The notes beneath the pieces are model-generated. The model was given only the letters and a program-made list of their open reading frames with translations. It had not been told where the DNA came from and made no database searches. From Rhodospirillales bacterium (GTDB lineage Bacteria; Pseudomonadota; Alphaproteobacteria; Rhodospirillales; JAPHRK01): 33,115 nt of DNA. The stretch is from the NCBI GenBank assembly GCA_026196105.1, contig JAPHRK010000039.1, forward strand, positions 1 to 33,115, given 5' to 3'. The translations under genes were made by a program, and so were the position numbers. Shown here piece by piece: positions 6,624 through 7,247 of this stretch. The first letter of the stretch is position 1. Each line of letters opens with the position of its first letter.

Positions 6624-6652
6624 TTGACTTCCTCTGGGTTTGAGACAAAATA
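6624..6652 (+). promoter_or_regulatory. Candidate hsp20 promoter
   Basis: TTGACT (6624-6629) and an A/T-rich AAAATA (6647-6652) are spaced by 17 bases, just upstream of the first leader hairpin. Transcription would begin near 6659, giving a leader of about 127 bases that contains the whole hairpin series. The match is too poor to tell RpoD from RpoH use. Confidence 0.3.
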
Positions 6653-6659
6653 AGAGGGG

Positions 6660-6783
6660 ACGGACTGCCATAATTTGGAGTCCGTGCCTTTAAGAGTAGT
6701 TTGTGAATAAGCAGAACTACTCTCAGGTGCCGGAAGAGCCGGGCCAGAATGTGTTAAACCCTCGCTCACTAGAGGAGATGGTT
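6660..6783 (+). promoter_or_regulatory. ROSE-like RNA thermometer in the hsp20 leader
   Basis: Four successive hairpins can be drawn. (I) ACGGACT 6660-6666 pairs with AGTCCGT 6679-6685. (II) GAGTAGT 6694-6700 pairs with ACTACTC 6716-6722. (III) GG 6726-6727 and CCGG 6730-6733 pair with CCGG 6739-6742 and CC 6744-6745. (IV) AACC 6757-6760 pairs with GGTT 6780-6783, and CTC-G-CTC 6761-6767 pairs with GAGGAG 6772-6777 around the loop ACTA. Hairpin IV buries the whole Shine-Dalgarno sequence AGGAG and leaves one unpaired G opposite it. That is the UYGCU signature of ROSE elements, which melt at heat-shock temperature and control small heat-shock genes in rhizobia and other proteobacteria. The position directly before an hsp20 gene agrees. 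Folding was done by eye. Confidence 0.85.
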
Positions 6784-6785
6784 CT

Positions 6786-7247
6786 ATGCCAAGATTATCT
6801 ATGTTCAATAGCCCTTTACTACTAGGCTTCGATCACTTTGAAGAAGTGCTAGACCGAGTTTCAAAAAGCTCAGCAGAAGGCTATCCCCCCTATAATATAG
6901 AACAGATCGGTGAAAATCAGCTTTGCATCACCTTGGCTGTTGCCGGTTTTTCCAGCAACGACCTCTCCGTAACTATTGAAGATGCGCAATTAGTTGTCAG
7001 GGGGCGACAAGTTGAAGAAGAGGATACGGGGCGAATTTTCCTTCACCGCGGCATTGCAGCCCGGCAGTTCCAGCGCAGTTTTGTTTTAGCTGAAGGCATT
7101 GAGGTCACAGGCTCCCGCCTCGAGCAAGGCTTACTGCACATTGACCTGCATCGTCCAACACCTGAACCCGTAATTAAAACCATCGAAATCACATCTACCG
7201 AAGAAAAAACAGCCCCAAAGAAAAAGACTAAAACCATCGACATATAG
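6786..7247 (+). CDS. Small heat shock protein, Hsp20/IbpA family
   Basis: This is an ATP-independent holdase chaperone of 153 residues, the usual size. The alpha-crystallin domain spans about residues 36-128. It starts at YNIEQIGENQLCITLAVAGF, continues through the LVVRG strand, and ends in the LEQGLLHIDL element that corresponds to the family's A-x-x-x-[ND]-G-x-L signature. The C-terminal tail has IEI and a terminal IDI, matching the I-x-I motif that links dimers into oligomers. A small N-terminal part precedes the domain. The ATG at 6786 lies eight bases after AGGAG, which is sequestered in the leader's last hairpin, so translation should rise on heating. The next gene starts 64 bases downstream and may be co-transcribed. 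Confidence 0.93.
   Translation: MPRLSMFNSPLLLGFDHFEEVLDRVSKSSAEGYPPYNIEQIGENQLCITLAVAGFSSNDLSVTIEDAQLVVRGRQVEEEDTGRIFLHRGIAARQFQRSFVLAEGIEVTGSRLEQGLLHIDLHRPTPEPVIKTIEITSTEEKTAPKKKTKTIDI

Follow-up and report, generated by a model that had tools for sequence, protein, structure and literature searches.

A Probable ROSE-Type RNA Thermometer in the Leader of an hsp20 Gene of a Rhodospirillales Bacterium and a Similar Core before rpoH

The analyzed window, i.e., the whole stretch of 33,115 bp of contig JAPHRK010000039.1 of a Rhodospirillales bacterium, contains an hsp20 gene with the start codon ATG at position 6786. It is preceded by a leader in which four hairpins, designated A to D, were predicted. 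The features of this region are as follows:

6624–6651, forward strand: promoter-like site TTGACT-N16-CAAAAT (weak match)
6660–6685, forward strand: hairpin A with bulged G6667, form Y-G-CC...GG-R (predicted fold, −14.3 kcal/mol; counted by the bulged-G scan)
6693–6723, forward strand: hairpin B, without the Y-G-CC motif (predicted fold)
6726–6745, forward strand: hairpin C with bulged G6729, form GGU-G-CCGG...CCGG-GCC (predicted fold, alignments A3 and A5)
6757–6783, forward strand: hairpin D, the putative sensing hairpin, with anti-Shine–Dalgarno (anti-SD) 6761–6767, bulged G6764, and clamp AACC/GGTT (letters and folds; the core is kept in relatives)
6772–6777, forward strand: Shine–Dalgarno sequence (SD) GAGGAG, sequestered by hairpin D (letters, predicted fold)
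6786–7247, forward strand: hsp20 gene, IbpA-like (PF00011, 55.1 bits; NCBIfam IbpA, 108.7 bits with a cut-off of 212)

The original prediction of a ROSE-like leader was built on the pairing of CTC-G-CTC (6761–6767) with GAGGAG (6772–6777) around bulged G6764; letters and coordinates agreed with it, and the hairpin was formed by RNAfold at 37 °C. The proposed clamp of AACC (6757–6760) and GGTT (6780–6783) was also present, with a bulged AT (6778–6779) between GAGGAG and GGTT. Regarding the three hairpins proposed upstream of the sensing hairpin, A, B, and C were all predicted, but C was unstable in some folds: its lower stem paired elsewhere when 6658–6815 was folded at 37 and 45 °C. Hairpins A and C have a bulged G, like sensing hairpin D, and hairpin C is the counterpart of the GGGYGCC/GGGCCC hairpin conserved in alignments A3 and A5 (described below). 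At 25 °C, RNAfold preferred a different register and pairing into the coding region; the SD was still hidden.

Transcription is unlikely to start downstream of 6757: the promoter-like site would place the start near 6658, and a bulged-G hairpin located before 6757 is kept in relatives, with compensatory changes. The letters CTTGA[AC] were found upstream of 124 of 188 related leaders versus 14 of 188 coding control windows, while only ATTGAC was present in the window. Transcription of the leader is probably heat-inducible.

The whole leader was very stable in the fold: its energy (z-score of −4.57) was matched by none of 200 shuffles and, in a second run, by none of 300. Such stability would also be expected if the leader were simply a stable 5′ structure protecting the mRNA, or merely GC-rich, with an SD pairing devoid of a regulatory role; a function in mRNA stability was indeed proposed for hairpin I of Pseudomonas (PMC3669281). 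However, the conserved letters cluster at the SD, its anti-SD partner, and the bulged G, and both strands change jointly, which makes this explanation very improbable. Hiding of the SD alone is weak evidence because, among 300 shufflings of the upstream part, 6% equalled or bettered it; therefore, the case depends on relatives. The core pattern alone was likewise rejected as evidence: CTYGCTC-N3-14-GAGGAG occurred five times in the 3.9 Mb genome versus two occurrences of a control pattern. Three of the four other matches (L304–L306) had no obvious gene start in the stretch inspected, and the fourth was located in the rpoH region. Predicted melting was rejected as proof of thermosensing: opening of the window SD was slight in Vienna calculations, its unpaired value rising from 0.03 at 25 °C to 0.13 at 45 °C, but the proven E. 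coli ibpA thermometer, used as a control, misbehaved, its value dropping from 0.54 to 0.39.

Relatives were collected on two levels. The order set combined 80 protein-matched loci from named genomes (the best 80 of 170; largely Rhodospirillales) with 30 that a search of 60 genomes had yielded, giving 104 distinct leaders after removal of the window and duplicates. UYGCU was found at positions −50 to −16 in 97 of them (mean of 6.54 and maximum of 16 in 50 shuffles) and was absent from the other seven. It is this conservation that places the core of the window above chance. The phylum sample was obtained by matching to E. coli IbpA (120 matches in 71 of 200 genomes); 110 leaders were used (30 supplied with the search and 80 fetched), while the window gene and nine further matches were left out. 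UYGCU was present in 98 of these 110 leaders; in the shuffle comparison, from which L237 was excluded because of a mis-set start, it was found in 97 of 109 (mean of 8.24, maximum of 14). One leader, L247, is common to both samples.

Several related leaders had particular features. In L104 and L105, which are among the seven without UYGCU, CUGCU occurs with GAGGGGG before hsp20; these are the letters of ROSE-G. In L066 (1–87) and in the leader L070, some 24 bases, with the core at their end, occur as a tandem duplication in front of hsp20. In one relative, a c-di-GMP-I riboswitch (L009:312–405, 71.6 bits) is located about 1.6 kb upstream of hsp20.

Compensatory changes, which the original prediction had named as a check, were present in the last two hairpins. 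Among 83 representatives sharing less than 80% identity, both of these hairpins were recognised by a script in 65, and 45 were chosen; six were then removed for poor alignment or odd composition, leaving 39 sequences in alignment A3. In A3, a selection that favours sequences that pair, 98.9% of cells were paired, and both partners had changed in 5 of 12 pairs; none of 500 shuffles reached this. The covariance model built from A3 to cover both hairpins had matches in 47 of 385 genomes of the class. In 29 of the 30 best loci the hsp20 start followed right after the match, and the remaining one (L148) was cut by a contig end. One of the 29 was the window itself, and another (L127) was letter-identical to L049, which had been used in the model. 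This left 28 loci independent of model building, 27 preceding hsp20 and one cut by the contig end, which formed alignment A5. A5 was aligned with the model and is biased in its favour. Of its cells, 99.7% were paired; both partners had changed in 5 of 12 pairs and in 19 cells (matched by 0 of 500 shuffles). The number of further pair types was not above chance (58 of 500 shuffles reached the value).

Four of the six pairs of the sensing helix are invariant in A3 and therefore unable to test the pairing. Informative in the SD helix were the innermost pair (C-G, U-A, A-U) and the lineages of L046, L047, L063, and L069, in which the SD and anti-SD are changed jointly (GGCATTGCTC with GAGGGTGCC) while the bulged G is kept. 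The strong letter conservation of CTCGCTC and GGGYGCC could also be expected if these blocks were DNA sites of a regulator rather than RNA structure, a view formerly held for ROSE (PMC4166951). Against this, pairing persists in the stems as letters change, the bulged base stays in place, and sigma32-type promoter letters precede the leaders; we regard DNA sites as the least probable explanation of all.

Thus, the reading of the leader as a ROSE-like thermometer is supported by an hsp20 gene at a fitting distance, by the core, and by the covariation of the last two hairpins, although no Rfam threshold was reached. The region from about 6658 to 6785 is very probably the 5′ leader of the hsp20 mRNA, acting as a ROSE-type RNA thermometer with the last hairpin opened by heat. 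The basis of this interpretation is conservation, together with the proven behaviour of ROSE elements elsewhere. At growth temperature, CUC-G-CUC would be paired with GAGGAG around bulged G6764, keeping 30S subunits off; upon heating, hairpin D would open first and translation would begin, while the bulged-G hairpins A and C would remain folded and support the fold of the leader. Comparative support for hairpin D covers its core and not the AACC/GGTT clamp. We infer transcription over the full length of the leader, melting at physiological temperatures, repression, induction by heat, and the part played by hairpins A and C.

Hairpins A and C share the shape stem-Y-[G]-CC-loop-GG-R-stem. The scan for this motif required inner CC/GG, a single bulged base on the 5′ side, and four or more base pairs in the outer stem. 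In the window, the scan counted hairpin A alone; hairpin C was not counted because its outer stem has 3 bp. In 82 order leaders, 77 matches were found, with at least one in 61 leaders and none in 21. The coding windows of the same leaders gave one match, and 80 windows located 350–500 bases upstream gave six. With A, C, or T as the bulged base, the order leaders gave only 1, 3, and 1 matches, respectively. The phylum sample had 105 matches in 80 of 110 leaders (none in 30) versus four in coding sequence, and 8, 4, and 9 matches for bulged A, C, and T, respectively; a bulged G with inner GC/GC was fairly common there (35 versus 105 for CC/GG). Among 80 fetched protein-matched sHsp leaders, a set containing one locus with a mis-set start, the motif was present in 59 (mean of 6.45 and maximum of 12 in 20 shuffles). 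The base preceding the bulge was C or U in 68 of 75 motifs, and the loop had four or six bases in 50 of 75. Stems vary by lineage; the scan itself requires pairing, which is addressed by the bulge-identity controls.

The same Y-G-CC...GG-R hairpin was found upstream of the sensing hairpin in the ibpA and ibpB leaders of E. coli K-12 (L122). Among the loci found with RF01832, the motif was present in all seven encoding an IbpA relative and absent from the three not encoding one. The same bulge is part of the first hairpin in the RF00435 model, so RF00435 loci, seven of eight of which have the motif, were not used as support for it. Two RF00435 matches below the cut-off, L120 and L121, had no Hsp20 within the 3 kb locus. 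In Pseudomonas aeruginosa, disruption of hairpin I led to derepression, though this hairpin does not melt (PMC3669281); the word bulge is absent from the main text of that paper. We failed to find a description of the shared motif among the open-access titles and abstract starts listed.

Of the three sHsp genes in the genome, two are preceded by ROSE-type leaders, namely the window gene and L002, which is also IbpA-like. The leader of L002 (reverse strand, 1911–2003) is a classical ROSE leader (28.9 bits with RF00435 when 221 bases were searched; gathering score of 45). No such core was found in the leader of the third gene, L001. In the alignment, the Hsp20 of the window and that of L002 have residues matching R93 and Y34 of E. 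coli IbpA, while L001 has neither. When loci fetched with RNA models were excluded, UYGCU preceded 140 of 147 sHsps with R93 versus 2 of 15 without it, and the bulged-G hairpin 115 of 145 versus 2 of 15. In the count of all 207 proteins, which is biased by the loci fetched with RNA models, UYGCU preceded 180 of 187 sHsps with R93 and 7 of 20 without it, six of these seven being enterobacterial ibpA loci.

These data bear on the possibility that the leader responds mainly to protein: free sHsp would bind to it, perhaps at the bulged-G hairpins, and repress translation until aggregates draw the sHsp off, temperature acting indirectly. Such a switch may coexist with melting. E. coli IbpA is the precedent: it represses its own mRNA via the 5′ UTR, R93 being required for the binding, and is also reported to repress the synthesis of IbpB and sigma32 (PMC10474464). 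The window Hsp20 keeps R93 and Y34, the co-occurrence of R93 with UYGCU points in the same direction, and the bulged-G hairpin of the ibpB leader, present there as in ibpA, fits the repression of IbpB by IbpA. However, common descent can explain the co-occurrence of R93 and the leader equally well; a bulged-G hairpin was sought in E. coli rpoH from −250 to +300 and not found, which does not fit the repression of sigma32; and in Pseudomonas ibpA, hairpin II alone was enough for thermoregulation (PMC3669281). A mainly protein-responsive leader is unlikely, as is binding of sHsp by the bulged-G hairpins, which we put forward as a hypothesis. A wider proposal, equally tentative, is that these hairpins are the recognition site of sHsps, and that the leader would sense both heat, through melting, and free chaperone, through binding, the two jointly setting the synthesis of sHsp and sigma32.

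The genome-wide search for the core of the presumed thermometer gave a match about 300 bases upstream of a sigma32 gene (TIGR02392, 343.7 bits; cut-off of 323.1):

L307:1455–1820 (contig C41 of genome G000): rpoH leader of the same genome (core search and predicted fold)

Its predicted fold contains three successive bulged-G hairpins, AGGUGGUU-G-CCGC..., GCCUC-G-CUC.../GAGGAGGC, and GUCAUAUU-G-CUC.../GAGGAUGUGAC, of which the first was not counted by the motif scan because of its three G-U pairs. The hairpins end at a possible ORF of 17 codons, and the rpoH start lies 183 bases further. A loose scan found the core before the best rpoH in all 30 genomes, including this one; in 20 of these 30, it precedes a possible ORF of 2–17 codons, with start codons chosen mechanically, that ends 92–186 bases before rpoH. 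The short ORF may act on rpoH by coupling, by release of downstream structure, or have no effect. In L309, L326, L329, L333, and L335, the core is located at the start of rpoH itself.

For a strict scan, 60 order genomes were searched, and 59 gave an rpoH match (rpoH leaders within L307–L366). The core was found in 40 of the 59 (mean of 0.35 and maximum of 2 in 20 shuffles); 19 best rpoH leaders failed the scan, L338 and L344 being near misses by eye. It was found in none of the 11 second rpoH copies fetched and in none of the 29 rpoH loci from the class search, among which L402 was again from the order. In alignment A4, comprising 38 distinct cores, 88.8% of cells were paired and double changes were seen in 21 cells (equalled by 0 of 500 shuffles). 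Two of the five measures were not above chance: the number of pairs with both partners changed was reached by 449 of 500 shuffles, and that of further pair types by 460. Of 39 rpoH leaders, 21 had a bulged-G hairpin upstream of the core and 4 had one downstream; an A-bulged variant lay upstream in 13. None of 20 rpoH loci matched an Rfam family at the gathering score. From these sequences we infer possible heat control through the rpoH core, as well as protein binding. No report of a ROSE core before rpoH was found among the open-access titles and abstract starts listed, and the core may have been described earlier; the words ROSE and thermometer are absent from PMC4843759, which deals with the evolution of alphaproteobacterial rpoH.

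As a presumed thermometer, the leader is of a known kind, in a variant missed by Rfam; interest is raised by two sequence findings, the bulged-G motif common to several hairpins and the cores before rpoH. The function of the 5′ hairpins of ROSE elements was called 'not fully understood' (PMC3669281). In the leaders of alphaproteobacteria, and as far afield as E. coli ibpA and ibpB, the bulged-G motif is common to the 5′ and the sensing hairpins; therefore, the role of the 5′ hairpins is open to a one-base test. Later work extended the targets of ROSE to ABC transporter genes (PMC11342760, PMC12857270) and to rhlA of P. aeruginosa (PMC13104619). If the core before rpoH is a true ROSE element, the heat-shock sigma factor itself would be under such control. 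If heat and free chaperone were both read, one RNA design would tie the synthesis of sHsp to that of sigma32, in this order often via a short leader ORF.

No Rfam family matched the window at its gathering score. RF00435 gave no match there up to an E-value of 10, and a permissive search with ROSE_2 (RF01832) aligned to 6739–6792 with 15.1 bits (gathering score of 65). ROSE matches were likewise absent from 18 relatives, from the two other sHsp loci of the same genome, and from 20 window-type leaders, all except L247 from outside the order; in the phylum sample, 2 of 20 leaders had one. In genome searches with strict filters, RF00435 matched in 8 of 190 genomes of the class, none above the cut-off, and RF01832 in 9 of 299 genomes of the phylum, three above it. 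The missing Rfam threshold says little because Rfam misses most relatives too, and the Rfam score was rejected as a criterion of class membership for its low sensitivity. The window element is not filed under RF00435 or RF01832, since it does not reach their gathering thresholds.

Compared with published descriptions of ROSE-like elements (PMC3669281), UCGCU (6762–6766) is imperfectly paired with the SD in the 3′-proximal hairpin, the four predicted stem-loops correspond to the two to four of the 5′ UTR described there, the element lies before a small heat shock gene (PF00011), and the pairing is kept among relatives. Like ROSE-G (PMC12857270), the window has a bulged G within the anti-SD helix; ROSE-G, however, has CUGCU, with G bulges facing each other on the two strands, and precedes ABC transporter genes, while the window has UCGCU with a single bulge, the SD strand being fully paired there. 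With RF00435, the window shares a bulged-G first hairpin and a UYGCU anti-SD hairpin with a bulged G upstream of an sHsp gene. It differs in its two additional 5′ hairpins, in the score below the threshold, in the absence of a hairpin between C and D, where RF00435 has an 8-bp hairpin between the first and the anti-SD hairpins, and in CUCGCUC/GAGGAG in place of AUGUUGCUC/GGAGGAUAU. The AACC/GGTT clamp had been thought longer than in the minimal ROSE; this did not hold, as the anti-SD hairpin of RF00435 has 16 pairs and extends past the start codon, and the novelty of the clamp was rejected. With ROSE_2 (RF01832, the E. coli ibpA type), the window shares the UCGCU core, in spite of its score far below gathering; a bulged-G hairpin lies upstream in E. 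coli ibpA and in 7 of 10 loci found. Finally, as in the short ROSE-like thermometers of Pseudomonas ibpA (PMC3669281), a stable GC-rich hairpin is followed directly by the UYGCU hairpin; those thermometers consist of two hairpins only, whereas four were predicted in the window.
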